Below, piece after piece: positions 28,030-51,029 of a stretch of 64,000 bases of DNA. Made by a program: the position numbers and the translations under genes. Under the pieces are notes generated by a model that saw only the letters and a program-made list of their open reading frames with translations, was not told the origin of the DNA and made no database searches. The stretch is from Paracoccus haematequi (GTDB lineage: Bacteria; Pseudomonadota; Alphaproteobacteria; Rhodobacterales; Rhodobacteraceae): positions 124,001 through 188,000 of the forward strand of contig NZ_UZWE01000026.1 of the NCBI RefSeq assembly GCF_900631945.1, given 5' to 3'. Numbering within the stretch: position 1 is the first letter of the stretch; every line of letters begins with the position of its first letter.

Positions 28030-28047
28030 GGCGTCCTCCGTTGCACC

Positions 28048-29592: not shown

Positions 29593-30718
29593 CTTTCACT
29601 GATCCGGCCAGCAATCCGCGAACCAGATATTTCTGCATCGCAAAGAACACGATCAGCGGCACCGCGATTGAGATGAAGGCCGAGGTGGCAAGGATCTCCC
29701 ATTCCCCGCCCTTCGATCCCATCAATTCGCGCAAGACGCCGGTCATGACCAGTTGCTCCCTGGTATTGCCAAGGAAAACGGTCGCGACAAGCAGGTCGTT
29801 CCAGACCCACAGGAACTGGAAGATCGCGAAGCTGGCCAATGCCGGAAAAGACAGCGGAAGGATGATCTTGCGGAAGATCTGGAATTCGGTCGCGCCGTCC
29901 ACGCGGGCGGATTCGATCACCTCTCGCGGCAGGCCGACCATGTAGTTGCGCAGAAGATAGATCGCCAAGGGCAGGCCGAAGCCGGTATGGGCCAGCCAGA
30001 TCCCCAGGTATCCCTTGCCGATGCCCAGTTCGTTGTGCAGCCGCAGCAGCGGGATCAGCGCCACCTGCAAGGGCACGACCAGCAGCCCCACCACGGCGGC
30101 GGTCAGGATGGCGCGGCCCGGAAACTCCATCCAGGCCAGCGCATAGGCGGCGAAGGCCGCGATCAGGATCGGGATGACGGTCGCGGGGATCGTCACCGTC
30201 AGCGTGTTCATGAAGGCGCGGCCCAGCCCTTCGGCGGTCAGCACGCGGGCATAGTTTTCGGTGGTCAGCCGGGCGGGCGCCCCGGTGGTGACGAAGATCC
30301 GTTCGCCCCGGCGCATCTCGAACGGGGTGGGCGAGGTCATGCGATAGCTGCCGTCCGGGGCCACCGTGACCTGCCAGCCGTCGCCGATCTCGGCCGTCTC
30401 GCCGGGCTGGAAGGCGCCTGGTTCGCGGGCGCGGGTGCCCCAGGCGATCAGGGACTGGCCCTCCTCCAGCACGTTGCCCTCGATCACATAGGCGCCGTCC
30501 TGCTGGACCGCATCGTCGCCCGTGCCGGTGCGCACGAAGCCCGTCGCCTGCTGGGCGGAAAACGACTGCCACCAGCCCGAGGTCAGGATCTGGTCGCGAT
30601 CCCGGAAAGACGACACCAGCAGGCCCAGCGTCGGGATGGTCCACAGCAGCACCAGCAGGAAGGCCGCGATGTTGACCGCCCAGACAAGACCCGATTTCTG
30701 TCCGGCCATGCCCTCCAT
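29585..30718 (-). CDS. aglG: Alpha-glucoside ABC transporter permease AglG
   Basis: 377 residues, MalG-like. One N-terminal TM segment is followed by a periplasmic insert of about 120 residues and then a five-TM permease core. The EAA loop reads 'EVIESARVDGATEFQIFRKIILPLSFPAL', which contacts the ATPase. The long periplasmic insert is typical of AglG. It overlaps the aglF stop by one base (TGATG) and the aglA start by 8 bases. Confidence 0.9.
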   Translation of the reverse strand: MEGMAGQKSGLVWAVNIAAFLLVLLWTIPTLGLLVSSFRDRDQILTSGWWQSFSAQQATGFVRTGTGDDAVQQDGAYVIEGNVLEEGQSLIAWGTRAREPGAFQPGETAEIGDGWQVTVAPDGSYRMTSPTPFEMRRGERIFVTTGAPARLTTENYARVLTAEGLGRAFMNTLTVTIPATVIPILIAAFAAYALAWMEFPGRAILTAAVVGLLVVPLQVALIPLLRLHNELGIGKGYLGIWLAHTGFGLPLAIYLLRNYMVGLPREVIESARVDGATEFQIFRKIILPLSFPALASFAIFQFLWVWNDLLVATVFLGNTREQLVMTGVLRELMGSKGGEWEILATSAFISIAVPLIVFFAMQKYLVRGLLAGSVKGG

Positions 30719-31713
30719 CAGCGCACCTCCCGCCGGGCGTTGACGATGTTCCAGATCATGATCGGCGTGACCAGGATCATCAGGATGATGGCGATGGCCG
30801 ATCCGCGCCCGTAATCGGGCGTGCCGCGGAACATCCAGTCATACATCAGGTTCGCCAGCACCTGCGTGCCCCATTGCCCGTTGGTCATCACGAACACGAT
30901 GTCGAAGACCTTGAGCACGACGATGGTGATGGTGGTCCACACGACCGCGATAGTGCCCATGATCTGCGGCACCTTGATCTTGAAGAACACCTGCCAGGGG
31001 GATGCGCCGTCCAGGATCGCGGCCTCGATGGTTTCCTCGGGGATGCCGCGCAGGGCGGCGGACAGGATCACCATCGCGAATCCCGTCTGGATCCAGACCA
31101 GCACGATCATCAGGAACAGGTTGTTCCAGGGGATCAGCGTCAGCCACAACTGCGGCTCACCCCCCAGGGCCTGGACGATGGCGTTCAGCAACCCGATCTG
31201 GTTTTCGCCCGGCGCGCGGTATTCATAGATGAATTTCCAGATCACCCCGGCGCCGACAAAGCTGATCGCCATCGGCATGAAGATCAGCGACTTGCCGATA
31301 TTGCCCCATTTCAGACGGTCGGTCAGCTGCGCCGCGATCAGCCCGAACAGCGTGGACAAAGCCGGCACCACCAACAGCCAGACCAGGTTGTTGCGCATGG
31401 ATTCGCGGAATTTTCCGTCGTTCAGCAGCCAGGCGTAATTGCCGCCGCCCACGAAGTCGGTGCCCCGCGCATTGTGCAGCGACCGCCACAGGCTGTCGAA
31501 GATCGGATAGACCAGATAGACGCCCAGGAACAGGATCGCCGGACCCAGGAACAGCCAAGGGCGGATCTGGTTGGCCTTGCGGATATTGTCCCCGGCATTC
31601 GGCCCGCGCGGGGGATAGATGCGGTCCAGGATCAGGTTCGATCCCCAGAACCACGCCACGCAGCCGAAGACGCCGATGGCGATGGTGCTGACGGCCAGCC
31701 AGAACAGTTCCAT
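30718..31713 (-). CDS. aglF: Alpha-glucoside ABC transporter permease AglF
   Basis: 331 residues, MalF-like, with about seven TM helices. The N-terminus carries an extra TM plus 'IYPPRGPNAGDNIRKANQIRPW', then 'FLGPAILFLGVYLVYPIFDSLW'. The EAA loop is 'ETIEAAILDGASPWQVFFKIKVPQIMG'. It pairs with AglG to form the membrane channel. It follows aglE after a 57-base gap containing a perfect 10-bp hairpin. Confidence 0.9.
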   Translation of the reverse strand: MELFWLAVSTIAIGVFGCVAWFWGSNLILDRIYPPRGPNAGDNIRKANQIRPWLFLGPAILFLGVYLVYPIFDSLWRSLHNARGTDFVGGGNYAWLLNDGKFRESMRNNLVWLLVVPALSTLFGLIAAQLTDRLKWGNIGKSLIFMPMAISFVGAGVIWKFIYEYRAPGENQIGLLNAIVQALGGEPQLWLTLIPWNNLFLMIVLVWIQTGFAMVILSAALRGIPEETIEAAILDGASPWQVFFKIKVPQIMGTIAVVWTTITIVVLKVFDIVFVMTNGQWGTQVLANLMYDWMFRGTPDYGRGSAIAIILMILVTPIMIWNIVNARREVR

Positions 31714-33208: not shown

Positions 33209-34261
33209 TTATTCCCATTCCAGTTCCTTGAAGGCGGCCGTCGCGTCGCGCGCGGCAGAGTCCGGGAAGGATGCCCAGTCCGATGCGAAGGGCTGCAAGG
33301 CGGCGACGATGGCGGGGACCGCCTGCGACAGGGGCAACCCCTGCGCGACGGCCTCTCGGGTGCTGGCGGCCAGGACAGTCAGGAATTCCCGCTGCGCGCC
33401 CACCGCCTGCGGCCAGTCCGCCGCGACCGGCCCGTGGCCCGGCACGATGGGACCGCCGGTCTGGCCCGCCGCCATCCAGTCCAGCCAACCGGGCAGCGAT
33501 CCATCGACGATGGGGGTCAGCCCGCGAAACACCAGATCGCCCGCGAACAGCGTGCCGGTGGCGCTGTCGCGCACGGTCAGGTCGTTGTCGCTGTGCGCCG
33601 GGCCGGTCGCGGTCAGCGTCAGGATGCGCCCGCCCAGGTCGATGTCCAGCCGGTCCGCCACTTCGATGTCGGGCAGCACGACCCGCGTGCCGATCATCGG
33701 CCCCGGCCCGTACAGATCGGTCAGGTTGTCCAGATAGACCGGGCCGCGCGCCGCCAGAGCATCGCCCAGCCGGGCATGGCCGACGACGGCGGCGCCCGCC
33801 TCGCGGAAGACCTCGGCCCCGAAGGCATGGTCGGGGTGCATATGGGTGACGATCAGGTGGCTGATCGGCTTGTCGCTGATGCGGCGGATCGCCGCGAACA
33901 GGGCCTGCCCCTGCTGGCGGGATGCGCCTGCGTCGATCACCGCGATGCTGTCGCGCCCGATGACGAAGCCCAGGTTGGCGATCCAGCCGTCCGGGCTGTC
34001 CTCGAACTGGGCGATCTGGCCGATATGGACGTGGATTCCCTGGGCCACCGCCTGGACCGGCAGGGCGGGCAGGTCGGCCAGGGGCGCGCAGGACAGGCCC
34101 CCCTGGACCAGCGAGGGGCGGTCCCCCAGCCACGTGTCGGCGATTCGCGGCGCCTGAGCCTTGCAATCCGCCAGGGTCGCAAACGGCTGCGCGACCAGTG
34201 TCATGGGGGCGCAGGTCGGGGGATTGGCGGCAAGGCAGGCGGACAAGATGGCATGAAACAT
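33209..34261 (-). CDS. Quinoprotein-relay zinc metallo-hydrolase (SoxH-like, MBL fold)
   Basis: 350 residues. A metallo-beta-lactamase fold with 'LIVTHMHPDHAFGAEVF' (HxHxDH), 'TATGPAHSDNDL' (third His), 'GTLFAGDLVFRG' and 'IVPGHGPV'. The short hydrophobic N-terminus 'MFHAILSACLAA' with later paired Cys suggests export. It corresponds to the 'quinoprotein relay system zinc metallohydrolase' families found with PQQ loci. Its substrate is unknown. It is divergent from pqqA with a 139-base gap, which ties it to PQQ metabolism. Confidence 0.75.
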   Translation of the reverse strand: MFHAILSACLAANPPTCAPMTLVAQPFATLADCKAQAPRIADTWLGDRPSLVQGGLSCAPLADLPALPVQAVAQGIHVHIGQIAQFEDSPDGWIANLGFVIGRDSIAVIDAGASRQQGQALFAAIRRISDKPISHLIVTHMHPDHAFGAEVFREAGAAVVGHARLGDALAARGPVYLDNLTDLYGPGPMIGTRVVLPDIEVADRLDIDLGGRILTLTATGPAHSDNDLTVRDSATGTLFAGDLVFRGLTPIVDGSLPGWLDWMAAGQTGGPIVPGHGPVAADWPQAVGAQREFLTVLAASTREAVAQGLPLSQAVPAIVAALQPFASDWASFPDSAARDATAAFKELEWE

Positions 34262-34400
34262 TGCCGGATCTTCCCAATGTGACGGGTTGCGCTTTCCAAC
34301 TTTTCGTGACCTCCGACCTTAGTCGTGTTGAATCGCGTTGTCTCTGGGCTAACATCACAGACAGTCGCCATCCTGGCGGCCGTGGATTTGGAGGAAATGC
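34262..34400. promoter_or_regulatory. Divergent promoter region of pqqA and the metallo-hydrolase
   Basis: A 139-base gap between divergent starts, holding both promoters. The pqqA ribosome site GGAGGAAATGC is at 34390-34400. No regulator palindrome or clear sigma-70 boxes could be assigned by eye. The response regulator encoded at 39120 is a candidate binder. Confidence 0.4.
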
Positions 34401-34493
34401 ATGGCTTGGACGAAACCCATCCTGAAAGAAATCGCCTGCGGCATGGAAATCAACATGTACGCCCCGGCCGAGGACGAACCCGTCCTGTTCTGA
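34401..34493 (+). CDS. pqqA: PQQ precursor peptide PqqA
   Basis: Only 30 residues, beginning MAWTKPILKEIACGMEINMY. It contains the invariant Glu16 and Tyr20 (E-I-N-M-Y) that PqqE links and that become the PQQ skeleton. A short acidic tail follows (APAEDEPVLF). It has a strong GGAGGAAATGC ribosome site. It is separated from pqqB by 71 bases with a terminator-like hairpin, so it can be made in excess of the enzymes. Small-gene callers easily miss it. Confidence 0.96.
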   Translation: MAWTKPILKEIACGMEINMYAPAEDEPVLF

Positions 34494-34564: not shown

Positions 34565-35446
34565 ATGCGGATCATCGTGCTGGGCGCAGCGGCGGGCGGC
34601 GGCCTGCCGCAATGGAACTGCGGCTGCGGCAACTGCAACGCCGCGCGGGTCGGGCGTATTCCGGCGATGACGCAAAGCTCGGTCGCGGTCAGCGCGGATG
34701 GGCGGGACTGGGCGATCCTGAACGCCTCGCCCGACATCCGCGCGCAACTGGCGGCGACGCCCGCGCTGCATCCGACCGGGCTGCGCGACATGCCGCTGCG
34801 CTCGGTGCTGGTCACGAACGGCGATATCGACCATGTGGCGGGGCTGCTGACGCTGCGCGAAAGCCAGCCGTTTGCGCTGTATGCGACGCCCGCGATCCAT
34901 GCGGCGCTGTCCGCGAACCCGATGCTGGCCGCCCTGCGCGAGGATCTGGTGCCGCGCCGGACCGTGGCCTTGGACCAGTCCATCGACCTGGCGCCGGGGC
35001 TCACCGCCACGCTGTTCGCGGTGCCGGGCAAGGTGCCGCTGTATCAGGAAGGCGCGGTGGTCGAGACCGGCCTGGTCGGCGAAACCACTGTGGGCGTGGA
35101 ACTGGCGGCGAACGGGCGCCGCGCGCTGTATATCCCCGGCTGCGCCGACCTGCCGGGCTGGCTGCTGGACCGCATCGCTGGCGCCGACCTGCTGATGTTC
35201 GACGGCACCCTATGGGAGGATGACGAGATGATCCGCATGGGCCTGGGCCAGAAGACCGGCCTGCGCATGGGCCACATTCCGGTGGTGGACACGATTGCCG
35301 CCCTGCGCGGCTTGGCCGTCGGGCAGCGGGTCTTCGTCCACATGAACAATTCGAACCCGCTGACCGATCCCGGCAGCACGCAGACCGCCGAAGCGCAGGC
35401 CGCTGGCTGGCAGATCGGCCGCGACGGAATGGAGATCACGCTGTGA
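34565..35446 (+). CDS. pqqB: PQQ biosynthesis protein PqqB
   Basis: 293 residues, metallo-beta-lactamase-like. 'VLGAAAGGGLPQWNCGCGNCNAAR' with its Cys pair is the PqqB zinc-knuckle start. 'LVTNGDIDHVAGLLTLRE' is the altered metal motif, and 'VFVHMNNSNPLTDPGS' is typical at the C-terminus. PqqB acts as a tyrosine hydroxylase-like enzyme on the processed Glu-Tyr intermediate. Its stop overlaps the GTG start of pqqC (GTGA). Confidence 0.96.
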   Translation: MRIIVLGAAAGGGLPQWNCGCGNCNAARVGRIPAMTQSSVAVSADGRDWAILNASPDIRAQLAATPALHPTGLRDMPLRSVLVTNGDIDHVAGLLTLRESQPFALYATPAIHAALSANPMLAALREDLVPRRTVALDQSIDLAPGLTATLFAVPGKVPLYQEGAVVETGLVGETTVGVELAANGRRALYIPGCADLPGWLLDRIAGADLLMFDGTLWEDDEMIRMGLGQKTGLRMGHIPVVDTIAALRGLAVGQRVFVHMNNSNPLTDPGSTQTAEAQAAGWQIGRDGMEITL

Positions 35447-36195
35447 AGGATATTCGCGACACCGCCCAATCGCGCGAGGATTTCGAGGCCCGGCTGCGCG
35501 CCATCGGCGCCGAACGCTATCACGACCGCCATCCGTTCCACGAACGGCTGCATGGCGGCCATTGCACCCCGGACGAGGTTCGCGCCTGGGTCATCAATCG
35601 CTGGATGTATCAGTCTCGCATCCCGATGAAGGACGCGGCCTTCATGTCGCGGGTGGAAGACCCGGACCTGCGCCGCGCCTGGCGCAAGCGGATCGAGGAT
35701 CACGACGGCGGCACCACCGAAGGCGGCGGCATCCGCCGCTGGCTGGCCCTGGCGCAGGCTGTGGGGCTGGACCCCGATTATGTCGCCAGCGGGGTGGGCA
35801 TCATGCCCGCGACGCGTTTCGCGGTGGACGCCTATGTCCGCTTCGTCCGCGACATGCCCTTGCTGGACGCGGTGGCCGCCAGCCTGACGGAACTGTTCGC
35901 GCCGAAAATCCACGCCCAGCGGATCGAGGGGCTGCTGGCCCATTACGATTTCGCCGACGACGCCAGCCTGTCCTATTTCAAGAAGCGCCTGACCGAGGCG
36001 CCCGAGGACGTGGCCTTCGGGCTGGATTATGTCCTGACCCATGCCGACACGCTGGAAAAACAGGACGCGGCGGCGGCGGCGCTGATCTTCAAGACCGACG
36101 TGCTGTGGGCGCAGCTTGACGCGCTGTGGCACGGTTATGTCGAGGGCAACATCCCGCCGGGCGCCTGGCGGCCGGGAGAGGGGATGGCAAAATGA
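35443..36195 (+). CDS. pqqC: Pyrroloquinoline-quinone synthase PqqC
   Basis: 250 residues, all-helical. 'RYHDRHPFHERLHGG' and 'RAWVINRWMYQSRIPMKDAAFMSR' carry active-site His, Arg and Tyr. 'DHDGGTTEGGGIRRWLALAQAVGL' and 'LTELFAPKIHAQRI' are family signatures. It catalyses the cofactor-free eight-electron oxidation and ring closure to PQQ. The GTG start (35443) overlaps pqqB and its stop overlaps pqqD (ATGA). Confidence 0.96.
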   Translation: MKDIRDTAQSREDFEARLRAIGAERYHDRHPFHERLHGGHCTPDEVRAWVINRWMYQSRIPMKDAAFMSRVEDPDLRRAWRKRIEDHDGGTTEGGGIRRWLALAQAVGLDPDYVASGVGIMPATRFAVDAYVRFVRDMPLLDAVAASLTELFAPKIHAQRIEGLLAHYDFADDASLSYFKKRLTEAPEDVAFGLDYVLTHADTLEKQDAAAAALIFKTDVLWAQLDALWHGYVEGNIPPGAWRPGEGMAK

Positions 36196-36512
36196 ACGCC
36201 CAGCCAGCCCCCCCAAGGCCAGCCGCCCTGATCGAACCCGACGACATTCCCTATCTGCCGCGCGGCGTGCGGCTGGCGGATGACCGGGTGCGCGGCATCC
36301 GCGTCTTGCAGGCCCCCGAACGGGCCATGCAGCTGGACGCCATCGGCGATGCGATCCTGTCGGAACTGGACGGCCGTCGCAGCATGGCCGGGATCGTCCA
36401 TGACCTTGCCGCGCGCTATAACGCGCCCGACGATCAGATCGCGGGCGACGTGCGCGATTTTCTGACCGGACTGATCGAACGGCGCATGGTCTTTGTGAAG
36501 GACAGGTCATGA
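36192..36512 (+). CDS. pqqD: PQQ peptide chaperone PqqD
   Basis: 106 residues. A RiPP recognition element fold: 'YLPRGVRLADDRVRGIRVLQAPERAMQLDAIGDAILSELDGRRSMAGIVHDLA'. It binds the PqqA leader and presents it to PqqE. The N-terminus is Pro/Ala-rich and about 15 residues longer than minimal PqqD. Start and stop both overlap neighbours by four bases, giving strict coupling of pqqC-D-E. Confidence 0.95.
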   Translation: MNAQPAPPRPAALIEPDDIPYLPRGVRLADDRVRGIRVLQAPERAMQLDAIGDAILSELDGRRSMAGIVHDLAARYNAPDDQIAGDVRDFLTGLIERRMVFVKDRS

Positions 36513-37645
36513 AGGACCAGCAGCATCAGCCCCGCGACCTGGACGGCAACCCCGTCACCCCCGGCCTGCCCATGGCCATGCTGGCCGAGGTGACGCATCG
36601 CTGCCCGCTGGCCTGCCCCTATTGTTCGAACCCCGTGGAACTGACCCGCGCCGCCCAGGAACTGACCGCCGACGACTGGGGCCGGGTGTTTCGCCAGGCC
36701 GCCGACCTGGGGGTGTTGCAGGTCCATGTCTCGGGCGGGGAACCCGGCGCGCGGCGGGATCTGGCGCAGATTGTGGCTCACGCGCGCGATGCGGGCCTGT
36801 ATGTGAACCTCATCACCTCGGGCATCGGCATCACCCGCGACCGGCTGGAAGAACTGGACCGTGCGGGCGTCGATCACGTGCAACTGTCCTTGCAGGGGAT
36901 CCGCCCCGACATGGCCGACCGGATCAGCGGCCATCCCGGATCCTGGGACAAGAAGATGGGTTTCGCCGACTGGGTGCGCGACATCGGCTTCCCGCTGACC
37001 ATCAACGCCGTGGTCCATCGCCAGAACCTGGAACGCCTGCCCGACATGATAGACTTGGCCGAACGGCTGGGCGCCCGCCGGATCGAGGTCGCGACGGTGC
37101 AGTTTCACGGCTGGGCGGATCTGAACCGCCGCGCGCTGATGCCCACCCGCGACCAGGCGGCCATGGCGCGGCAGGTGGTGAACGACGCGCGCATCCGGCT
37201 GCGCGGGCGGATGGTCATCGACTATGTTCCCGCCGACCACCACGCCGTCTATCCCAAGGCCTGCATGGGCGGCTGGGGATCCACCGGCCTGAACGTCGCG
37301 CCCGACGGAACCGTCCTGCCCTGCCACGCCGCGCAGTCGATCACCTGGATGCGCTTCGAGAATGTGCGCGACCGGGATCTGGACGACATCTGGCTGAATT
37401 CGGACAGCTTCAACGCCTTTCGTGGCACCGCCTGGATGCCCGAACCCTGCCAGGGCTGCGACCGCAAGACCGTGGATTTCGGCGGCTGCCGCTGCCAGGC
37501 CATGGCGCTTGCGGGCGATGCGCGGGCGACCGATCCTGTCTGTTCGCGGTCGCCCTTCCACGCCGACGTGGTGGCCCGCGCCGAGGCCGATGCCCAGGCC
37601 GACCCCGCCGACTTCATCTATCGCCGCATGAAAAAAGGGGATTAG
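36509..37645 (+). CDS. pqqE: PqqA peptide cyclase PqqE (radical SAM)
   Basis: 378 residues. The radical-SAM cluster motif is 'HRCPLACPYCSNPVEL', followed by 'VSGGEPGARRDL'. The C-terminal SPASM part contains Cys-rich 'PKACMGGWG', 'VLPCHAAQ' and 'CQGCDRKTVDFGGCRCQA' for the auxiliary [Fe-S] clusters. It joins Glu16 and Tyr20 of PqqA by a C-C bond. The start overlaps pqqD. No pqqF/pqqG-type protease gene follows. Confidence 0.96.
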   Translation: MKDQQHQPRDLDGNPVTPGLPMAMLAEVTHRCPLACPYCSNPVELTRAAQELTADDWGRVFRQAADLGVLQVHVSGGEPGARRDLAQIVAHARDAGLYVNLITSGIGITRDRLEELDRAGVDHVQLSLQGIRPDMADRISGHPGSWDKKMGFADWVRDIGFPLTINAVVHRQNLERLPDMIDLAERLGARRIEVATVQFHGWADLNRRALMPTRDQAAMARQVVNDARIRLRGRMVIDYVPADHHAVYPKACMGGWGSTGLNVAPDGTVLPCHAAQSITWMRFENVRDRDLDDIWLNSDSFNAFRGTAWMPEPCQGCDRKTVDFGGCRCQAMALAGDARATDPVCSRSPFHADVVARAEADAQADPADFIYRRMKKGD

Positions 37646-37647
37646 AC

Positions 37648-38424
37648 ATGAAGACCCTTGCCCTTGTCGCGCTGCTGCTGGCCGGACCGGCGGCGGCGCA
37701 GGACAATCCGCTGAAGAATTCTCCGACCTGGGACGATCTGCGCGATTCCGTGCTGGGCCTGTCGGCCGATGTGCCGCAGGACGCGGGCGTGCTGGATCTG
37801 GACGCCCCGGTCCGCGCACACGAGGCCGCCATCGTCCCGATCCGCCTGACCCAGCCCGCCGACGCTCCGCCGGTCCAGGCCGTGACCCTGGTGATCGACG
37901 AAAATCCCGCCCCGGTCGCCGCCGAATACAGCTTCGGCCCGGCCATGGCGCCCTTGGATTTCGAATTCCGCGTCCGCGTGGACAGCTATTCCGACGTGCG
38001 CGCCATCGCCGATACCGGCAACGGCACCCGCGTGATGGCGGGCCGCTTCGTCAAGGCTTCGGGCGGCTGTTCGGCCCCGGCGGGCAAGGACATGGCCGAG
38101 GTCGAAGCGACGATGGGCCAGATGCGCTGGAAAAGCGCCGTCCAGGACGGCCGGACCGTCGGCACGCTGATGATCCGGCATCCGAATTTCTCGGGCCTGC
38201 AACGCGACCAGGTGACGCTGCTGAACATCCCCGCCCATTTCATCGACCGGCTCGAGGTCCGGCAGGGCGAGGATCTGCTGTTTTCCCTGCAAGCCGGGAT
38301 CTCGATCAGCGAGGATCCGGTGTTCCGCTTCGCCTATGCCCCCAACGGCCAGCCGATCCATGTCCATGCCGAGGATACGGACGGCAATACCTGGGACCAC
38401 AGCTTCGATGCCGTCAATGGATAA
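37648..38424 (+). CDS. Quinoprotein-associated SoxYZ-like carrier protein
   Basis: 258 residues with a signal peptide (about 1-17, ending AAA-QDN). A SoxY-like part (about 25-145) ends in 'KASGGCSAPAG', where Cys141 parallels the sulfur-carrying Cys of SoxY. A SoxZ-like immunoglobulin-type domain follows ('GTLMIRHPNFSG...HFIDRLEV'). This fusion is known beside PQQ dehydrogenase loci; its cargo is not established. It starts 2 bases after the pqqE stop and, with the metallo-hydrolase at 33209, completes the so-called relay pair. Confidence 0.82.
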   Translation: MKTLALVALLLAGPAAAQDNPLKNSPTWDDLRDSVLGLSADVPQDAGVLDLDAPVRAHEAAIVPIRLTQPADAPPVQAVTLVIDENPAPVAAEYSFGPAMAPLDFEFRVRVDSYSDVRAIADTGNGTRVMAGRFVKASGGCSAPAGKDMAEVEATMGQMRWKSAVQDGRTVGTLMIRHPNFSGLQRDQVTLLNIPAHFIDRLEVRQGEDLLFSLQAGISISEDPVFRFAYAPNGQPIHVHAEDTDGNTWDHSFDAVNG

Positions 38425-38434
38425 GGACACCATC

Positions 38435-38992
38435 ATGACCAAGCGCGCGACCATCGCCGTCGATATTCAGAACGACTATTTCCCCGGCGGAAAATTCCCG
38501 CTGGAGGGCATGGAGGACGCCGCCGCCAAGGCCCGCGCCGTGCTGGATGCCGCCCGCAAACGGGGCGACCTGATCGTGCATGTTCGCCACGAATTCGCCG
38601 ACGATTCGGCGCCGTTCTTCCATCCCGGCAGCGAGGGCGCGGGCATCAACCCGACTGCGGCGCCGCAGGGGGACGAGATCGTCGTGACCAAGAACAACGT
38701 CAACGCCTTCAAGGATACCGGCCTGCAACGCATCCTGGACGACAACGGCGTCACCGACGTGGTGATCGTCGGCGCCATGAGCCATATGTGCATCGACGCG
38801 GCCACCCGCGCGGCATCCGATCTGGGCTACAAGACCACGGTGATCGCCGATGCCTGCGCGACCCGCGACCTGGAATTCCAGGGCACGACCGTCCCGGCCG
38901 CCCAGGTCCATGCCGCGATGATGAGCGGGCTGGCCTTCGGCTATGCCACCGTCACGGACGCGCAGGACTGGATCGCCGGTCAACCCGCCTGA
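38435..38992 (+). CDS. Cysteine hydrolase (isochorismatase/nicotinamidase-like)
   Basis: 185 residues. The catalytic triad is visible: Asp in 'IAVDIQNDYFPGG', Lys in 'IVVTKNNVNAF' and Cys in 'GAMSHMCIDAATRAA' with the preceding cis-peptide. It hydrolyses a C-N or C-C bond in an amide, imide or vinyl ether; the substrate cannot be read from sequence. The start at 38435 has AAGGAC at a spacing of 6; an ATG at 38417 is less likely. It appears to be the last gene of the pqq transcript. Confidence 0.85.
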   Translation: MTKRATIAVDIQNDYFPGGKFPLEGMEDAAAKARAVLDAARKRGDLIVHVRHEFADDSAPFFHPGSEGAGINPTAAPQGDEIVVTKNNVNAFKDTGLQRILDDNGVTDVVIVGAMSHMCIDAATRAASDLGYKTTVIADACATRDLEFQGTTVPAAQVHAAMMSGLAFGYATVTDAQDWIAGQPA

Positions 38993-39119
38993 CGCCGCCG
39001 GCCCGGCGGGACCGCGACCTTGGTCGCATCAGCGGGCTTGCGTTGGCGCACAGCAGGCCTACAATCGTGAAAGAATGTTGCGGAGGGGAGACCGCGATAT
39101 CATCCGAGGAGGAATCACG
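38993..39119 (+). promoter_or_regulatory. Upstream region of the response-regulator gene
   Basis: 127 bases. A CCGCCGG-C-CCGGCGG hairpin directly follows the hydrolase stop and may end the pqq transcript. The remainder, ending in a strong GAGGAGGAATCACG ribosome site, presumably holds the promoter of the signalling genes. Confidence 0.4.
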
Positions 39120-39827
39120 ATGACAGCCGCAGCCATGCAGGCCCGTGCGCCGCAGACGCCACGGCAAAGCGCCGATCAGGTCCGGGAAATCCTGATCGTG
39201 GACGATCACCCGCTGATGTGCGATGCCCTGGCCTTGACCCTGAAGATCAGCTTCGGCCTGAAGAATGTGCGGACCGCCCGCAGCCTGGGCGCGGCCCTGG
39301 ACGGGATCAAGGCGCAGGGCGCGCCCGACGCGGTGATCCTGGACCTGAACCTGCCCGACGCGCGCGGGGCCGAGGGGATCGTCACCCTGCGCCGCCAGTT
39401 GCCCGACGTGCCGATCACCATGATCTCGGCCGACATGGACAGCGCCATGATATCGGCGGCGATGGCCGCAGGGGCGCAGGGCTATATCAGCAAGTCTCTG
39501 GGCCGCGAGGCCCTGGTCGACAGCCTGCGCCGCATGTGGGAGGGCGAGCATGTCACCCCCGAAGGCTATGCGCCCGACCAGGCCGATGCGGACGATGCGG
39601 CCAAGGCCGAACTGGCGCGCCGCTTCGCCACCCTGACGCCGCAGCAGATGAAGATCCTGCGGCTGATCTGCCAGGGCAAGGCGAACAAGGAGATCAGCTA
39701 TGACCTGTCCATCGCCGAGGCGACGGTGAAAACCCACATCACCGCCATCATGTCCAAGATCAACGCCCGCCGCCGCACCCAGGCGGTGCTGCTTGCCAAT
39801 ACGGTCCGCCTGTTCGAGGCGGGCTGA
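39120..39827 (+). CDS. NarL/LuxR-type response regulator (ErbR/AgmR-like)
   Basis: 235 residues. The receiver domain (about 22-140) has 'ILIVDDHPLMCDAL', phospho-Asp in 'VILDLNLPDARG' and 'GYISKSLG' (Lys switch). The C-terminal HTH is 'LTPQQMKILRLICQGKANKEISYDLSIAEATVKTHITAIMSKI'. Regulators of this kind control PQQ alcohol dehydrogenases in pseudomonads (ErbR/AgmR), and the position beside pqq genes supports that. It is translationally linked to the FIST gene by a TGATG overlap. Confidence 0.85.
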   Translation: MTAAAMQARAPQTPRQSADQVREILIVDDHPLMCDALALTLKISFGLKNVRTARSLGAALDGIKAQGAPDAVILDLNLPDARGAEGIVTLRRQLPDVPITMISADMDSAMISAAMAAGAQGYISKSLGREALVDSLRRMWEGEHVTPEGYAPDQADADDAAKAELARRFATLTPQQMKILRLICQGKANKEISYDLSIAEATVKTHITAIMSKINARRRTQAVLLANTVRLFEAG

Positions 39828-40996
39828 TGATGGATACCGGCCCGGCAGCGAAGGAGGGCGCCACCGGGCCGGTGGCCGTGCAGGCCGACCGCGGACAGGC
39901 CGATCACGGCCGGATCCTGCTGGACGGCCTGCGCGGAGCCAATCCGGGCCTGGTCCTGATCTTCGGCGCGCATGGTCCCGAACTGGCCGCGCTTGACGCG
40001 GCGCTGCGGGCGGGCCTGCCCGAGGGCTGCGTGATCGCGGGCTGTTCGTCCGCAGGCGAAATCGGGCCGTGCGGCTATGCCAGCGACAGCGTGGTCGCCA
40101 TCGGCTTTCCGGCGGCGCATTTCCGTGCCTCGGCCCTGGTGCTGCCCGATCTGGACGCCTTGCCGGTGTCGGACTGGATGGCGGCGCTGCGCCGGTTGCA
40201 GGCGGGCTTCGGTCCCGATCCGCAGCGGTCGCTGTTCGGGCTGCTGCTGGTCGACGGGCTGGCGGGCCAGGAAGACGCCCTGGTGGCCACCATCGACGCG
40301 GCGCTGCCCTCGGTTCCGACGCTGGGCGGATCGGCGGGCGACGGGCTGCTGTTCCGCCAGACCTGGCTGCTGGCCCAGGGCAAGGTCGTGACCAATGCCG
40401 CCGTCTTCCTGCTGGTCGAAACCGACCTGGCCGTCAGCGAGGTGACCTTCGCCCATTTCAGCCCCACCGACCGGCGCGTGGTCGTCACCGCCGCGATCCC
40501 CGAAAAGCGCCGCATCCTGGAACTGAACGCCGAACCGGCGGCCGAGGAATATGCCCGCCTGACCGGACTCGCCCCCGACGCCCTGACACCCACCGAATTC
40601 GCGCGCCATCCGCTGTTGCTGCGGATGGGCCGCCACCATCACGTCCGGGCGATCAGCGCGCAGACCGGCGACGGCGGGCTGTCGCTGATGTCGGCCATCG
40701 ACACCGGCACCGTCCTGACGCTGGGCCGGGCCGAGGACATGACCCAGGGTTTCGCCGAGGCGCTTGCCGCCCTGCCCCGCCCGCCGCTGATGGTTCTGGC
40801 CTTCGACTGCATCCTGCGCCGCCTGGCGGTCGAACGCGAGGGCCTGAGCGACCAGATGTCGGAACTGCTGGCGCGGTATCGCGTGGCGGGGTTCAACACC
40901 TATGGCGAACAGCACAGCGGGATGCATGTGAACCAGACCTTCGTGGGACTGGCCTTCATGCCCAACACGGATGCGGCACCGACCCATGCTGCGTGA
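39827..40996 (+). CDS. FIST-domain sensor protein (NosP-like)
   Basis: 389 residues, soluble, no signal peptide. The FIST N domain (about 30-225) includes 'GCSSAGEIGPCGYASDSVVAIGF' and 'LFGLLLVDGLAGQEDALVATIDAALPSVPTLGGSAGDGL'. The FIST_C domain (about 235-370) ends in 'YRVAGFNTYGEQHSGMHVNQTFVGLAF'. FIST proteins bind small ligands; NosP of Pseudomonas is a haem FIST protein that senses NO and inhibits its kinase. The same gene order here (regulator, FIST, hybrid kinase) suggests a NosP-type role. Haem binding is inference. Confidence 0.8.
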   Translation: MMDTGPAAKEGATGPVAVQADRGQADHGRILLDGLRGANPGLVLIFGAHGPELAALDAALRAGLPEGCVIAGCSSAGEIGPCGYASDSVVAIGFPAAHFRASALVLPDLDALPVSDWMAALRRLQAGFGPDPQRSLFGLLLVDGLAGQEDALVATIDAALPSVPTLGGSAGDGLLFRQTWLLAQGKVVTNAAVFLLVETDLAVSEVTFAHFSPTDRRVVVTAAIPEKRRILELNAEPAAEEYARLTGLAPDALTPTEFARHPLLLRMGRHHHVRAISAQTGDGGLSLMSAIDTGTVLTLGRAEDMTQGFAEALAALPRPPLMVLAFDCILRRLAVEREGLSDQMSELLARYRVAGFNTYGEQHSGMHVNQTFVGLAFMPNTDAAPTHAA

Positions 40997-42308
40997 CGAC
41001 GACGGTCCCGAACGCCGGGTCGAAAAGCTGGCCCGCATCAACCAGGTGCTGATCGACCGCATCGACCGGCTGGAGGAATCGCGCGGCTCGGCCTGGTCGA
41101 TGTTCCAGGCCGCCGTCGCCCTGGAACAAGAGGTGATGGCCCGCACCCGCGACCTGGAACGCGCCCTGGCCGACCTGTCGCAACGCAACCGCGAACTGGC
41201 CGTCGCCCGCGCCTCGGCCGAAGAAGCCAATCGATCCAAGACCCGCTTCCTGCGCGCGGCCAGCCACGACCTGCTCCAACCCCTGTCGGCGGCGCGGCTG
41301 TTTTTGTCGATGCTGGCCGATACGCCGATGACCGAACATCAGGCGGAACTGACCGACCGGCTGTCGGGGGCCTTCGAATCGGTGGAACAGCTGATGCACG
41401 CGGTCTTGGACATCTCTCGGCTGGACAGCCAGCGGATCGAATTCCACCGCCAGCCGGTGCCCTTGGGCGATCTGTTCCGCAAGCTGGCCATAGAATACGC
41501 CCCCCTGGCCGAGGCGAAGGGGCTGCGGCTGTCCTTCGTGCCCACCGATGCGGTGGTCGAAAGCGACCCGGTCTTCCTGCGGCGGATCGCGCAGAACCTG
41601 GTGTCGAACGCGATCAAGTATACCAACCGGGGCGGCGTGGTGGTGGGCGCGCGCAAGCGCGGGCCGCTGGCTTGGCTGTGCGTCTATGACACGGGGGTGG
41701 GCATCCCGGCCGTGGACCGGAACCGGATCTTCGACGAATTCCAGCGGCTTGGCAACGACAACCGGACACCCGGAATGGGCTTGGGCCTGTCCATCGTGCG
41801 CCGCGCCTGCGCCAAGCTGGACCACCCGATCCGCCTGGATTCCGAAGCGATGCGCGGCACGGTCTTTCGCGTCGGCCTGCCCCTGGTCCAGCGTCAGGAC
41901 CGCAGCGGCCCGGACCGGCCCGCCCGCGCCACCCTGCCCCTGCGCGGCCGGGTCGCCCTGGTGGTGGAAAACGACCAGGGGATGCGGCGCGGATACGAGA
42001 TGATCCTGCGCGACCGGCTGGGCATGGTGGCCCGCATCGCCGGCGGCACGGCCGAGGCCCTGGCGACCATGGGCGACGACCCGCCCGACGTGATCCTGGC
42101 CGACTACAACCTGGAAAACGGCGATACCGGCGTCCAGGCCATCGCCGCCCTGCGCCGATCGGCGGGCCAGGCGATCCCCGCCGTGATGATCACCGCCCAT
42201 CGCGACCCGCAGATCGCCCGCAACTGCGCCGCCATGCAGGTGCATCTGATGGAAAAGCCCGTGCGCCCCTCGGAACTGGCCGAGATGCTGGGCGGCATCC
42301 TGGCATGA
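40986..42308 (+). CDS. Hybrid histidine kinase (NahK/ErcS-like), soluble
   Basis: About 440 residues. An N-terminal coiled coil (about 10-95) leads to HisKA with 'LRAASHDLLQPLSAARLFLS' (phospho-His). The ATPase motifs are N 'NLVSNAIKYTNRGG', G1 'YDTGVGIP' and G2 'GMGLGLSIV'. A C-terminal receiver has phospho-Asp in 'DVILADYNLENGD'. There is no TM or PAS domain, so a partner must supply the signal, most likely the FIST protein. An alternative ATG at 40971 is in frame. Both starts lie inside the FIST gene. Confidence 0.88.
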   Translation: MLRDDDGPERRVEKLARINQVLIDRIDRLEESRGSAWSMFQAAVALEQEVMARTRDLERALADLSQRNRELAVARASAEEANRSKTRFLRAASHDLLQPLSAARLFLSMLADTPMTEHQAELTDRLSGAFESVEQLMHAVLDISRLDSQRIEFHRQPVPLGDLFRKLAIEYAPLAEAKGLRLSFVPTDAVVESDPVFLRRIAQNLVSNAIKYTNRGGVVVGARKRGPLAWLCVYDTGVGIPAVDRNRIFDEFQRLGNDNRTPGMGLGLSIVRRACAKLDHPIRLDSEAMRGTVFRVGLPLVQRQDRSGPDRPARATLPLRGRVALVVENDQGMRRGYEMILRDRLGMVARIAGGTAEALATMGDDPPDVILADYNLENGDTGVQAIAALRRSAGQAIPAVMITAHRDPQIARNCAAMQVHLMEKPVRPSELAEMLGGILA

Positions 42309-42396
42309 TCTGCGACCAAAGGCCGAGGGCGCGCGCGGTGGGGCTTGCCCTTCGCCGCGGGGGGCGCAAACTGCCCCGGCATTGGGGAGGGTTAGC

Positions 42397-43014
42397 ATGA
42401 AACGAGCCATTGCCGCGGCCTTGTGGCTGGGGCTGTCGGTCCTGTCGCCGGGCATTGCCCCTGCGGGCGAAGCAGGCGACGCCGTCTTTGCCGAACGCGG
42501 CCCCTGGTCCATCGAGGGGCGCGACCTGCACTGGTCCCTGCATGTCGAGGGGCCGCAGGCTCCGGGCTTTGTGCCGGTCCGGGACGGCAGCCTGACGCTG
42601 ACCCAGGTGATCGACCCCACCGACAGCCAGCCGGTGCTGCAACTGGTCCAGCAGACCGATTCGCGGACTCGGCGGATCGGGCCGTTCCCGATCTCGGCCG
42701 GGGATCCGGTGCTGACCTTCTTTCTGGAACAGGTTACCCGCGACATGGCGACCCTGACCGGGGGCAGCCCGTTCTATATCCGCAACCGCATCAAGGAGGC
42801 GCTGTTCCAAGGTGGCAGGATCGCCGCGCAAAAGGGCGGGTCGGTCGCCAGCTTCCAGCCTTTCGCGGACGATCCGAACGCGAACCGGATGAAGGGGTTC
42901 GAGACGCTGACCCTGACCTTCCTGTTGGGCGATCCGTCCCAGCCGATCCGCGAACTGCGCGCCGAAACGGCCGGGGCGCAGCCCGGCTATGTCCAGCGGA
43001 TGGCGCTGCAATGA
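42397..43014 (+). CDS. Exported protein of unknown function
   Basis: 205 residues. A signal peptide of about 28 residues ends near 'PAGEA'. The mature part is a beta-rich domain ('WSIEGRDLHWSLHVEGPQ', 'DGSLTLTQVIDP') followed by a helical segment, and contains no Cys. I do not recognise the family. GGGGAGGG precedes the ATG at 42397. Its stop overlaps the start of the next exported protein (ATGA), so the pair is co-produced. Being directly downstream of the PQQ-linked kinase suggests a periplasmic partner of quinoprotein metabolism. Confidence 0.7.
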   Translation: MKRAIAAALWLGLSVLSPGIAPAGEAGDAVFAERGPWSIEGRDLHWSLHVEGPQAPGFVPVRDGSLTLTQVIDPTDSQPVLQLVQQTDSRTRRIGPFPISAGDPVLTFFLEQVTRDMATLTGGSPFYIRNRIKEALFQGGRIAAQKGGSVASFQPFADDPNANRMKGFETLTLTFLLGDPSQPIRELRAETAGAQPGYVQRMALQ

Positions 43015-43349
43015 TCGCCCGGCTGGCCTTGCTGGCCCTGGCGACGGGCGCGGCGCCCGCCTGGGCGCAGGCGGTGAACGATTATCCGACCAATGCGCGG
43101 ACGGAATACGTCTTTGCCTGCATGGCGACGAACGGCCAGACCCGCGACATGCTGGACCGCTGTTCCTGCGCCATCGACCAGATCGCCGAGGTGTTGCCCT
43201 ATGACGATTACGTCAGCGCCGAAACGGTGTTGCGGATGCAGCAGACGACCGGCGAACGATCCGGCATGTTCCGGGGAATGCCGCAGATGACCGAGATCAT
43301 CGCCCATCTGAAACGCGCCGAGGCCGAGGCCGAGATTTTGTGTTTCTGA
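43011..43349 (+). CDS. Small exported Cys-containing protein of unknown function
   Basis: 112 residues with a signal peptide (about 1-20, ending AWA-QAV). The mature part is about 92 residues and helical. It contains four Cys: 'VFACMATNGQ', 'DRCSCAIDQIAEVL' and a C-terminal 'EILCF', enough for two disulfides. No c-type haem motif CxxCH is present. I do not recognise the family. Coupled to the preceding exported protein by ATGA; together they end the rightward block and converge on ubiB. Confidence 0.7.
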   Translation: MIARLALLALATGAAPAWAQAVNDYPTNARTEYVFACMATNGQTRDMLDRCSCAIDQIAEVLPYDDYVSAETVLRMQQTTGERSGMFRGMPQMTEIIAHLKRAEAEAEILCF

Positions 43350-47879: not shown

Positions 47880-48439
47880 TTCTCGCGCCGTCCGCGGCGC
47901 TGATTGCCTTGAAATCGCGGTCCCGCGGGACCCGGAAACCCGGTCGGGTGCGGTTGCGAAACCGCGCCCGATTTCCATTTCTGCGCCTGCGAATGTTGCA
48001 AAAATGCCCACATATCAAGGCGTTCAGGATTCTTTCCTTTCGAGTCAAGGGGCTCGCAGATTCGATTTGGCAAAGCCCCTGTCAAGCACATAGTTCGGTT
48101 GCAGCAGGCCGCGCGCCATTGCTAACGTCATGGGGCGATTCACGTCGCTGTGTTGGGGGACGGGCCGGTTTCCCGACGATCCTGAAGGGTCGCGGGCATC
48201 GGTCGGGCCAGAAGGCTTCAGGCGCCTTCAAGCCCTCGGGTTGTTCTTGCAGACGGCTGCCACCGGCTGTGCGGAACCCCGTGTCTTGGATTGAACCTCG
48301 GGCGAAAGCCTCGTCATGCGACCCGTTCGGGGCCGCAGGGTGGGGTGTTGCCGCAGTTCGGTCCGTCCGGCCCGCGTCGGGGATCCTGTTTCGCCGGAAG
48401 GTCCGGCGAAGGCTGGGGACAGGAAAGATAGGGCAGACC
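47880..48439 (+). promoter_or_regulatory. 560-base dnaA upstream region with four GANTC sites
   Basis: No gene is apparent. GANTC, the CcrM methylation sequence of alphaproteobacteria, occurs four times in 114 bases (48028, 48042, 48059, 48137), in the only AT-richer part of the gap. No TTATNCACA DnaA box or AT-rich unwinding region was seen, so it is not an obvious origin. The second half (48150-48439) is GC-rich and probably a long dnaA leader, with a CGCCGGAAGGTCCGGCG-type hairpin shortly before the start. Confidence 0.6.
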
Positions 48440-49825
48440 ATGGACGAGATCTGGGGCCAGGCATGCGCCGCGCTTGAAACAAGCGTGGGGCCGAACAACT
48501 TCAATCATTGGATCAAGCCCCTGCGCCTGACCGGCGTGGATTCGGGGATCGCCCATTTCGCCAGCCCGACGCGCTTCATTTCCGACTGGGTGAACCGCCA
48601 CTTCGCCAAGGACATCCTGGGCGAGCTGAGCCGCCACGGCGCCACCGTGGAGCGCCTGCGGTTCGAGGTCGTGCCCCAGACCGCGCCCGGCCGCGCCCGT
48701 CCGGCCGCCGCCACCGCTGCCGCGAAGCCCGCGCGCCCCGTCGCAAGCGCCGCCGCGCCCGCCACGGCGCGGGTGGGCCGCACGGATCTGGGCGCGCCGC
48801 TGGATCCGCGCTATACCTTCGGCAATTTCGTTGTGGGCAAGCCCAACGAACTGGCCCATGCCGCCGCGCGCCGCGTGGCCGAGGGCGGGCCGGTCGGATT
48901 CAACCCGTTGTTTCTGTATGGCGGCGTGGGCCTGGGCAAGACCCACCTGATGCACGCCATCGCCCATGATTATCAGACGCGCCATCCGGCGGCGCAGGTG
49001 CTGTATCTGTCGGCGGAACAGTTCATGTACCGCTTCGTGCAGGCGCTGCGCGAAAGCACGATCATGGATTTCAAGGGCATGTTCCGCAACGTGAACATGC
49101 TGATGGTGGACGACGTGCAGTTCATCGCCGGCAAGGACAGCACCCAGGAGGAATTCTTCCACACCTTCAACGCCCTGGTCGATCAGGGCAAGCAGATCGT
49201 GATTTCCGCCGACCGCGCGCCCGCCGAGATCAAGGGCCTCGAGGAACGCATCAAGTCGCGCCTGTCCTGCGGACTGATCGTGGACCTGCATCCCACGACC
49301 TATGAATTGCGCCTGGGCATCCTGCAATCCAAGACCGAGGGCTTCCGCGCCCAGCAGCCCGATCTTGAGATCGGCGCGGGGGTTCTGGAATTCCTGGCGC
49401 ACCGGATCACCACCAACGTCCGCGTTCTGGAAGGCGCGCTGCAACGGCTGTTCGCCCATGCCAGCCTGCTGCGCCGCGAGATCACGCTGGAGGTGGCCCA
49501 GGAATGCCTGGCCGACATCCTGCGCACCAATGACCGCAAGATCTCGATCGACGACATCCAGCGCAAGGTCGCGGAACATTACAACATCCGTCTGGCCGAC
49601 ATGGTGGGGCCCAAGCGCGCCCGCAACGTCGCGCGTCCCCGGCAGATCGCCATGTACCTGTCCAAGCAGTTGACCAGCCGGTCCCTGCCGGAAATCGGCC
49701 GCCGCTTCGGCGGGCGCGATCACACCACGATCATGCACGGCATCCGCAAGGTCGAGGAACTGGTGGTCGAGGATCACGCCCTGGCCGAGGATGTGGCCCT
49801 GTTGAAGCGCCTGCTGGAAGCCTGA
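48440..49825 (+). CDS. dnaA: Chromosomal replication initiator DnaA
   Basis: 461 residues. Domain I (about 1-80), an Ala/Pro-rich linker (85-115), AAA+ domain III with 'GGVGLGKTHLMHAIAH' (Walker A) and 'NMLMVDDVQFIAGK' (Walker B), and DNA-binding domain IV with 'MYLSKQLTSRSLPEIGRRFGGRDHTTIMHG'. It binds DnaA boxes and opens the origin. The ATG at 48440 follows AGGAAAGATAGGGCAGACC. It begins a dnaA-dnaN-recF-gyrB block. Confidence 0.97.
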   Translation: MDEIWGQACAALETSVGPNNFNHWIKPLRLTGVDSGIAHFASPTRFISDWVNRHFAKDILGELSRHGATVERLRFEVVPQTAPGRARPAAATAAAKPARPVASAAAPATARVGRTDLGAPLDPRYTFGNFVVGKPNELAHAAARRVAEGGPVGFNPLFLYGGVGLGKTHLMHAIAHDYQTRHPAAQVLYLSAEQFMYRFVQALRESTIMDFKGMFRNVNMLMVDDVQFIAGKDSTQEEFFHTFNALVDQGKQIVISADRAPAEIKGLEERIKSRLSCGLIVDLHPTTYELRLGILQSKTEGFRAQQPDLEIGAGVLEFLAHRITTNVRVLEGALQRLFAHASLLRREITLEVAQECLADILRTNDRKISIDDIQRKVAEHYNIRLADMVGPKRARNVARPRQIAMYLSKQLTSRSLPEIGRRFGGRDHTTIMHGIRKVEELVVEDHALAEDVALLKRLLEA

Positions 49826-49834
49826 ACGAAACGC

Positions 49835-49863
49835 TTGTGACTGCCTGCGCGGGCCGTTACAAA
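49835..49863 (+). promoter_or_regulatory. Candidate dnaN promoter
   Basis: TTGTGA (49835-49840), a 17-base spacer and TACAAA (49858-49863) lie in the 85-base dnaA-dnaN gap, 47 bases upstream of the dnaN ATG. Confidence 0.4.
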
Positions 49864-49910
49864 ACAGGTCCGTTTACGGGCCGGAATGGCCGCAGGCACA
49901 GGGAAAAGCG

Positions 49911-51029
49911 ATGAAATTCTCGATCGAGCGCGCCGTTCTGGTCAAGGCCGTCTCTCAGGCCCAGTCGGTCGTGGAACGGCGCAACACCATTCCGATCCTG
50001 GCCAACGTCCTGATCGAGGCCACGCCCGAAGGGGTCAGCTTCCGCGCCACCGACTTGGATACCGAGGTCGTGGACCGCGCCCCCGCCCAGGTGGAACGTC
50101 CCGGCGCCACCACCGTCAGCGCGGTGATGCTGAACGAGATCGCGCGCAAGCTGCCCGACGGGGCCTTGGTCCAGATCAGCAGCGACGACGCGGCGGGGCG
50201 GCTGGCGGTGCAGGCTGGGCGGTCGTCCTTCAGCCTGGCCACGTTGCCGCGCGAGGATTTTCCGGTCATGGCGTCGTCGGAATACAGCGCCAATTTCAAG
50301 GCCAAGGCCGATGTGCTGCGGCGTCTGTTCGACAAGGCGAAGTTCGCCATCTCGACCGAGGAGACGCGCTATTACCTGAACGGCGTCTACATGCACGTGG
50401 CCCAGGTCGACGGCCAGCCGATGCTGCGCTGCGTGGCGACCGATGGGCACCGGCTTGCGCGGATCGACGCGCCGCTGCCGGTGGGCGCGGACGAGATGCC
50501 GGGCGTGATCGTGCCGCGCAAGACGGTCGCCGAACTGCGCAAGCTGCTGGACGACGACGATACCGACATTGCGGTGTCGGTCAGCGAAACCAAGGTGCGC
50601 TTCGCCACGCCGACGCTGACGCTGACATCCAAGGTGATCGACGGCACCTTCCCGGATTATTCCCGCGTCATCCCGATGAACAACGCCCGCAAGCTGGAGG
50701 TCGACGCGACCGACTTCGCCCGCGCGGTGGATCGGGTGGCGACCGTCAGCAGCGAACGGTCGCGCGCCGTCAAGCTGGCGCTGGATCAGGACCGGCTGAT
50801 CCTGTCGGTGAACGCCCCCGACGCCGGCGCCGCCGAAGAGGAGCTGATCGTGGCTTACGCCGACGACCCGCTGGAAATCGGCTTCAACGCCAAGTACCTG
50901 CAGGAAATCGCCAGCCAGGTGGACCGCGACAACGCGGTGTTCCTGTTCAACGGCTCGGGCGATGCCGCGCTGATCCGCGAAGGGTCCGACCAAAGCGCGG
51001 TCTATGTCGTCATGCCGATGCGGGTGTGA
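49911..51029 (+). CDS. dnaN: DNA polymerase III beta subunit (sliding clamp)
   Basis: 372 residues. Typical start 'MKFSIERAVLVKAVSQAQSVVERRNTIPILANVLIEA', 'SRAVKLALDQDRLILSVNAPD' and the C-terminal 'YVVMPMRV', where the last residues form the partner-binding pocket. It encircles DNA and tethers Pol III and repair factors. The stop overlaps the GTG start of recF. Confidence 0.97.
   Translation: MKFSIERAVLVKAVSQAQSVVERRNTIPILANVLIEATPEGVSFRATDLDTEVVDRAPAQVERPGATTVSAVMLNEIARKLPDGALVQISSDDAAGRLAVQAGRSSFSLATLPREDFPVMASSEYSANFKAKADVLRRLFDKAKFAISTEETRYYLNGVYMHVAQVDGQPMLRCVATDGHRLARIDAPLPVGADEMPGVIVPRKTVAELRKLLDDDDTDIAVSVSETKVRFATPTLTLTSKVIDGTFPDYSRVIPMNNARKLEVDATDFARAVDRVATVSSERSRAVKLALDQDRLILSVNAPDAGAAEEELIVAYADDPLEIGFNAKYLQEIASQVDRDNAVFLFNGSGDAALIREGSDQSAVYVVMPMRV

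Follow-up and report, generated by a model that had tools for sequence, protein, structure and literature searches.

What do three overlapping genes that follow a set of pyrroloquinoline quinone (PQQ) biosynthesis genes in Paracoccus haematequi sense, and what do they control? The genes occupy positions 39120-42308 of a 64,000-nucleotide stretch of contig NZ_UZWE01000026.1 (positions 124,001 to 188,000), called the window below, and encode a LuxR-type response regulator, a FIST-domain protein and a hybrid histidine kinase. The original prediction saw here a nitric oxide (NO)-sensing module of the NosP/NahK kind, through which NO controls PQQ-dependent oxidation. According to our analysis, the trio is an ordinary but informative FlhRS/AfdRTS-like, NosP-related regulator tied to PQQ-dependent oxidation. 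Because gene order, tree and neighbourhood all point there, we consider it likely that the trio is a regulator of the same kind as flhR-orf2-flhS and afdR-afdT-afdS and raises PQQ supply during quinoprotein oxidation. Published systems are described here from excerpts of the papers cited.

Results

The first gene of the trio (39120..39827, plus strand) encodes a LuxR/NarL-type response regulator of FlhR/AfdR/ErdR-like character, with a REC domain carrying D75 and a GerE DNA-binding domain in Pfam; its top NCBIfam match is ErdR, at 165.5 bits against a cut-off of 390. The second (39827..40996, plus strand) encodes a protein with Pfam FIST and FIST_C domains, orf2/AfdT/NosP-like and the presumed sensor subunit, in which a histidine at position 210 (H210) is kept. 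The third (40971..42308, plus strand) encodes a short hybrid histidine kinase in which Pfam finds HisKA, HATPase_c and REC domains and no PAS domain. All three open reading frames (ORFs) are uninterrupted, the regulator stop and the FIST start have one base in common (TGATG), and the kinase starts 26 bases within the FIST gene. The residues for phosphorylation are in place, namely H99 and the receiver D378 in the kinase and D75 in the regulator. ORFs, domains and positions thus bear out the original description of three overlapping genes after pqqA-E with a PAS-less kinase, which, judged from domain content alone, also has no transmembrane segment; the genes are separate and overlapping, and not literally fused, as had been written. 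The closest FIST protein among the 80 named loci compared is that of P. acridae (91% identical). The arrangement is not due to chance, since a FIST match is present in 95 of 113 Paracoccus genomes.

Gene order in relatives was scored with the regulator no more than 900 bp before the FIST gene and the kinase no more than 1500 bp after it, on the same strand, and neighbourhoods were taken for 100 chosen places among those listed. The order regulator-FIST-kinase is found in 58 of 60 loci of the family (L065-L124), in 72 of the 80 named loci and in 4 of 20 further loci. It occurs in none of 20 loci of NosP proteins that score above the family cut-off; in 16 of these the regulator match lies on the opposite strand, whereas the window regulator is co-directional with the FIST gene and upstream of it. 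The order of regulator, inserted ORF and kinase is also that of afdR-afdT-afdS and rfdR-rfdT-rfdS in R. sphaeroides and of flhR-orf2-flhS in P. denitrificans, systems with a role in the control of formaldehyde and methanol genes; AfdRTS and RfdRTS control the gene of glutathione-dependent formaldehyde dehydrogenase (PMC4776306). FlhRS is activated by formaldehyde and regulates both formaldehyde-producing and formaldehyde-consuming enzymes (PMC8879981). The excerpt of PMC4776306 describes the mode of formaldehyde sensing by Afd and Rfd as unknown and the role of the inserted ORF as unclear.

The neighbours of the trio in other genomes belong to the same metabolism. On pSymB of S. meliloti and in S. 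medicae, the regulator, FIST and kinase genes are followed by genes for two small proteins, a SoxYZ-like protein and a metallohydrolase, then by another gene, flhA, fghA, a cytochrome gene and a PQQ methanol/ethanol dehydrogenase gene (xoxF). In several roseobacters, too, flhA, fghA and xoxF accompany the trio, and on pPAN1 of P. pantotrophus a PQQ methanol/ethanol dehydrogenase gene lies upstream of it. Within the stretches fetched for the 80 named loci, a SoxYZ-like gene was found in 33, flhA in 26 (17 of these with xoxF), a more distant PQQ dehydrogenase in 11 and a pqq gene in 15; at least one of these is present in 50 loci and none in the stretch fetched for the other 30. The host genome (4.1 Mb in 110 contigs) itself holds a second regulator-FIST-kinase set (L065, contig C10:46000-62000), with a PAS-bearing kinase, which adjoins a PQQ dehydrogenase gene (C10:59044-60726), a cytochrome gene and a SoxY-like gene. 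In P. putida, the ped PQQ cluster contains the NosP homologue PP_2663 next to PedS1 and AgmR, a LuxR regulator (PMC12997753). Since the relatives' neighbourhoods and the ped cluster show it alike, the PQQ link of the trio is broader than the window. The comparison of neighbourhoods that had been proposed thus supports the tie to PQQ, with one-carbon and quinoprotein genes adjoining the trio.

The likeness to the known formaldehyde systems can be stated system by system. The trio has both the FlhRS/AfdRTS order of response regulator, inserted ORF and hybrid kinase and the linkage to one-carbon and quinoprotein oxidation genes. It shares with flhR-orf2-flhS the genus, the gene order and the link to methanol and formaldehyde oxidation (PMC4776306, PMC8879981); flhR-orf2-flhS could correspond to the window locus or to the other FIST locus found in the genus. 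With afdRTS and rfdRTS of R. sphaeroides, the host has in common the order and the presence of two copies per genome, here in the window and on contig C10 (PMC4776306). By gene order, AfdT and RfdT would be FIST proteins.

The relation to NosP is one of kinship. Against the NosP model (NF041558), the window FIST protein scores 316.3 bits over nearly its full length, below the equivalog cut-off of 450, and the window kinase scores 334.6 bits against the NahK/ErcS model (NF041832), below the cut-off of 400. Like NosP, the window protein is a stand-alone FIST and FIST_C protein beside a hybrid kinase. In a tree of 92 rows of FIST proteins, it falls within a clade of 51 rows (support 100/97), composed of a 23-row branch that includes the second host copy (L065) and a 28-row branch that holds the proteins of xoxF clusters together with the window clade (16 rows, 100/100). 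The NosP proteins above the cut-off lie outside these 51 rows; most form a separate 17-row branch (97/93), whose labelled members come from other classes of the phylum, and four further rows are placed elsewhere, as are several other alphaproteobacterial FIST proteins. The models and the tree therefore uphold the claim of a NosP/NahK-like module as far as relatedness goes, and the scores of both proteins under the NCBI cut-offs speak against membership in those families.

An alignment with NosP, which had been suggested as a way to find the haem ligand, gave a mixed answer. One alignment comprised the window protein and 70 of the 78 usable named FIST rows, and 20 of the 23 above-cut-off matches served as the NosP set. 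At position 210, histidine is present in all 20 NosP rows, in 0.90 of 21 window-clade rows and in 0.89 of 140 other rows, and glycine in 16 of 18 distant FIST proteins; H210 is a histidine specific to the NosP-like branch, and C73, C328, Y359 and H367 characterise FIST proteins in general. The cysteines at positions 47, 289 and 326 (window numbering), present in 20, 20 and 18 of the 20 NosP rows, are absent from the window protein, which has G, S and F there; these are conserved positions found in this analysis and no published criterion. We found no statement of the NosP haem ligand in the literature that we could read, the excerpts of PMC8738867 and PMC12889525 included. Because H210 is kept, haem binding by the window protein is possible, with H210 as the candidate ligand.

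Co-occurrence separates the PQQ tie from the NO signal. We compared 113 Paracoccus genomes and 296 genomes of the family, with counts that are not corrected for shared ancestry and are given as both / FIST only / other only / neither. In these tables nirS stands for a PF02239 match with E <=6.3e-144 (38 genomes), and nirK, pqqE and PQQ dehydrogenase for matches above the family cut-off. A window-type FIST, with a best match of at least 47% identity, is present in 93 Paracoccus genomes, and G611 and G682 have another type alone; the weak-FIST genomes G452, G499, G507 and G549 were counted as FIST-negative in the 296-genome tables. Across Paracoccus, FIST tracks the methanol-type PQQ dehydrogenase (94/1/1/17, p = 5e-18) and pqqE (91/4/3/15, p = 1.6e-12), and it does so in the family as well (87/35/4/170, p = 1.6e-40, and 56/66/9/165, p = 3.6e-17, respectively). 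In 62 of 91 genomes, pqqE lies directly upstream of the FIST gene, on the same strand and within 8 kb. No association was seen in the 113 Paracoccus genomes with nirS (32/63/6/12), with nirK (14/81/2/16) or with either of them (44/51/8/10), p being 1 in each case, and we reject NO as the default signal on this result.

The competing account, in which the FIST protein would bind haem, its NO-bound form would alter the kinase and NO from denitrification would tune PQQ-dependent oxidation, appears improbable. It can draw on the homology to NosP, on H210 with its contrast between NosP and distant FIST proteins, and on the nirK gene of the host genome, by which the host may make NO; Burkholderia NosK, a kinase without a recognised sensory domain under a NosP, offers a precedent (PMC12570481). 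These points are met by the missing association with nitrite reductase genes, the absent NosP cysteines, the scores under the curated cut-offs and the one-carbon and quinoprotein genes that neighbour the trio in relatives. NO sensing by the trio is possible but not indicated, and it is not needed for the explanation.

The FIST fold invites a second alternative, in which the protein would read an organic metabolite, such as an alcohol-derived acid, an aldehyde adduct or the state of PQQ or another cofactor, with haem uninvolved. The FIST sequence gave a single match to solved structures, at E 0.99. Its AlphaFold2 model (71 sequences, mean pLDDT 93.9, pLDDT being the predicted local distance difference test) is most similar to the FIST domain of FBXO22 (Z 20.2), followed by chorismatase (Z 11.7) and cyanuric acid hydrolase/barbiturase (Z about 10), a likeness of folds noted before for FBXO22 (PMC11185555). 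The modelled resemblance may favour a metabolite, as the last two are enzymes of small organic molecules. A common fold is no proof of function, however, and the FIST domain of FBXO22 is described without an obvious ligand pocket in the excerpt of PMC11185555; we regard this alternative as unlikely.

The kinase suggests how the FIST protein could act. NahK-type kinases have PAS domains before the kinase core, which the window kinase lacks; among relatives, PAS_4 and PAS_7 are found in the kinase of L128 and PAS_7 in those of L065, L074 and L097. The window kinase has 445 residues, against a median of 746 in 153 homologues outside the window clade, 14 of which are likewise shorter than 520. In the long homologues the match to the core starts at residue 279-469 (median 333), so that some 290 residues, PAS_7 included, are gone from the window kinase. 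The segment before them is retained: of 138 long homologues, 120 match approximately residues 6-86 of the window kinase at E 0.001, and 114 do so at E 1e-6. This N-terminal segment is probably where the FIST protein docks.

A candidate operator links the trio to PQQ synthesis. The inverted repeat CGACCTTWGTCG (CGAC-N4-GTCG) directly adjoins the pqqA -35 box; a minority of species, the host among them, have it before the regulator gene as well. In the window, CGACCTTAGTCG (34314..34325, plus strand) lies 2 bp before the -35-like TTGAAT of pqqA (34328-34333), which is followed by a -10-like TAACAT (34350-34355), and CGACCTTGGTCG (39015..39026, plus strand) lies before the regulator gene and its -35-like TTGCGT (about 39038-39043) and -10-like TACAAT (about 39060-39065); the promoter boxes were assigned by eye. 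With up to one mismatch, the repeat is found in 16 of 29 pqqA and 13 of 33 regulator upstream regions, against 57 of 2000 stretches drawn at random from these loci, true sites included. After removal of near-identical regions it is found in 15 of 26 and 12 of 31, and permuted patterns (up to 300) gave means of 0.15 for pqqA and 0.23 for the regulator (maxima 4 and 6). The count in the window alone, three matches including CGACCTTAGTCG and CGACCTTGGTCG, is not significant, since 11 of 100 shuffles (mean 1.28) reach three. The papers listed by a literature search led to no known pqqA operator. What the conservation of the repeat among relatives supports is pqqA as a target, joined in some species by the trio's own operon, and no more; the regulator of the trio would bind this candidate operator.

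The likely targets lie directly upstream. The pqqA gene (34401..34493, plus strand) encodes the precursor peptide, with an E..MY core that we take to be typical of PqqA. It is followed by pqqB, pqqC, pqqD and pqqE (34565..37645, plus strand); pqqD and pqqE score above the NCBIfam cut-offs, and we presume the names pqqB and pqqC from the ORFs in the window, these genes being conserved next to pqqD-E in relatives by homology. Between pqqE and the regulator, where the original prediction, correct about pqqA-E, mentioned no gene, lie a quinoprotein dehydrogenase-associated SoxYZ-like carrier gene (37651..38424, plus strand; TIGR04557, above cut-off) and an isochorismatase-family gene (38390-38992). 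The latter was detected in the P. acridae locus (L168) and in a Paracoccus metagenome-assembled genome (L171), and was not detected in further named Paracoccus loci with pqqE, among them L169, L172, L173, L176 and L179. Divergent from pqqA is the gene of quinoprotein relay system zinc metallohydrolase 2 (33209..34261, minus strand; TIGR04559, above cut-off). The kinase gene is followed by one for a conserved protein without assigned function or Pfam match (42382..43014, plus strand) and one for a short conserved protein (43011..43349, plus strand). In many loci of Rhodobacterales and Sinorhizobium this pair likewise comes after the kinase, and the short protein of named Paracoccus loci is 47-62% identical to its Sinorhizobium counterpart.

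Farther upstream, the window holds a membrane-bound PQQ dehydrogenase of the glucose/quinate family (24431-26827, minus strand; TIGR03074, 1070.5 bits, above cut-off). Sugar ABC transporter-like and glycosidase-like genes adjoin it at 26890-31713. The trio might mainly serve sugar oxidation through this dehydrogenase and the transporter genes, and not methanol or ethanol oxidation, and their presence in the window is what recommends such a role. We hold it to be very unlikely, as the trios of Sinorhizobium and P. pantotrophus lie with methanol/ethanol-type PQQ dehydrogenases and co-occurrence tracks the methanol-type enzyme, the PQQ dehydrogenase that the comparison covered. Elsewhere in the window, an ExaC-type acetaldehyde dehydrogenase and an AdhP-type alcohol dehydrogenase, both above cut-off, are encoded at 20673-23291 (minus strand), adjoining a weak DhaR-like match at 23419-24474. 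At 48000-52100, dnaA-, dnaN- and recF-like ORFs recognised by eye only suggest a nearby replication origin.

Discussion

In the mechanism that we infer from the genes, their order, relatedness, co-occurrence and conserved sites, the FIST protein would serve as input subunit to a cytoplasmic hybrid kinase stripped of its own PAS sensor and would dock on the conserved N-terminal segment of that kinase. The FIST protein would change in response to a signal connected with the oxidation of alcohols or aldehydes, formaldehyde or a downstream metabolite being the best candidate, and the altered protein would lead to autophosphorylation of the kinase at H99. The phosphate would reach the LuxR-type regulator at D75, either directly or by way of a histidine-phosphotransfer protein. 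Binding of CGAC-N4-GTCG by the regulator, both upstream of its own operon and adjacent to the pqqA -35 box, would then raise PQQ supply while quinoprotein dehydrogenases run. Of the proposal that NO controls PQQ-dependent oxidation, the PQQ half is retained, with neighbourhood, co-occurrence and the candidate operator behind it; the NO half is not supported, in view of the lack of association with nirS and nirK, the cut-offs, the cysteines and the order known from formaldehyde and methanol regulation.

Two further systems share parts of this design. NosP/NahK of P. aeruginosa and PP_2663/PedS1 of P. putida likewise combine a FIST protein and a co-cistronic hybrid kinase with a LuxR regulator near PQQ alcohol oxidation genes (PMC12997753). 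The window trio differs from NosP/NahK in its scores, its PAS-less kinase, its missing cysteines and its place in the tree. NosR-NosP-NosK of B. pseudomallei is a three-gene operon too, in which a kinase without a recognised sensory domain has a FIST partner; its regulator, in contrast, has a degenerate HD-GYP domain where that of the window has a DNA-binding LuxR-type domain (PMC12570481).

Several observations weigh against the assignment to the Flh/Afd kind and the proposed control of PQQ supply. In an rfdT mutant, expression of adhI with formaldehyde was unaltered (PMC4776306). The Flh/Afd/Rfd assignment draws on gene order and genus-wide presence and not on named sequences. The co-occurrence counts are uncorrected for shared ancestry, the methanol-type PQQ dehydrogenase is absent from 35 of the 122 FIST-bearing family genomes, and of 91 genomes 17 have pqqE on another contig and 12 have it farther away or on the opposite strand. 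The operator motif was spotted first and then tested on overlapping data, and at up to one mismatch 11 of 26 upstream regions of pqqA and 19 of 31 of the regulator lack it. We rejected it as a marker of a genome-wide regulon, with nine matches against 14 for the reversed control; among the other seven matches, the annotated pair on C25 has a purL-like and a LysR gene nearby. Operator control of the PQQ dehydrogenase gene was likewise rejected: in 21 loci, no site with one mismatch or fewer lies within 600 bp of the dehydrogenase match, and three loci have one with two mismatches.

A more far-reaching version can be offered tentatively, and we think it rather doubtful. The inserted ORF of FlhRS/AfdRS would be a NosP-like FIST sensor; with the PAS-less Paracoccus kinase, FIST alone would gate PQQ supply through the CGAC-N4-GTCG operator, and possibly a haem at H210 would let NO or redox state override alcohol oxidation.

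By way of gene order, the FlhRS/AfdRTS-like trio links the inserted ORF to the NosP-like FIST family, which provides a concrete sensor candidate for FlhRS/AfdRS. That the trio tracks PQQ dehydrogenases and not nitrite reductases is a warning not to label all FIST proteins of this sort as NO sensors. With its short kinase, Paracoccus offers a simple object for tests, and a direct prediction of target genes follows from the candidate operator.

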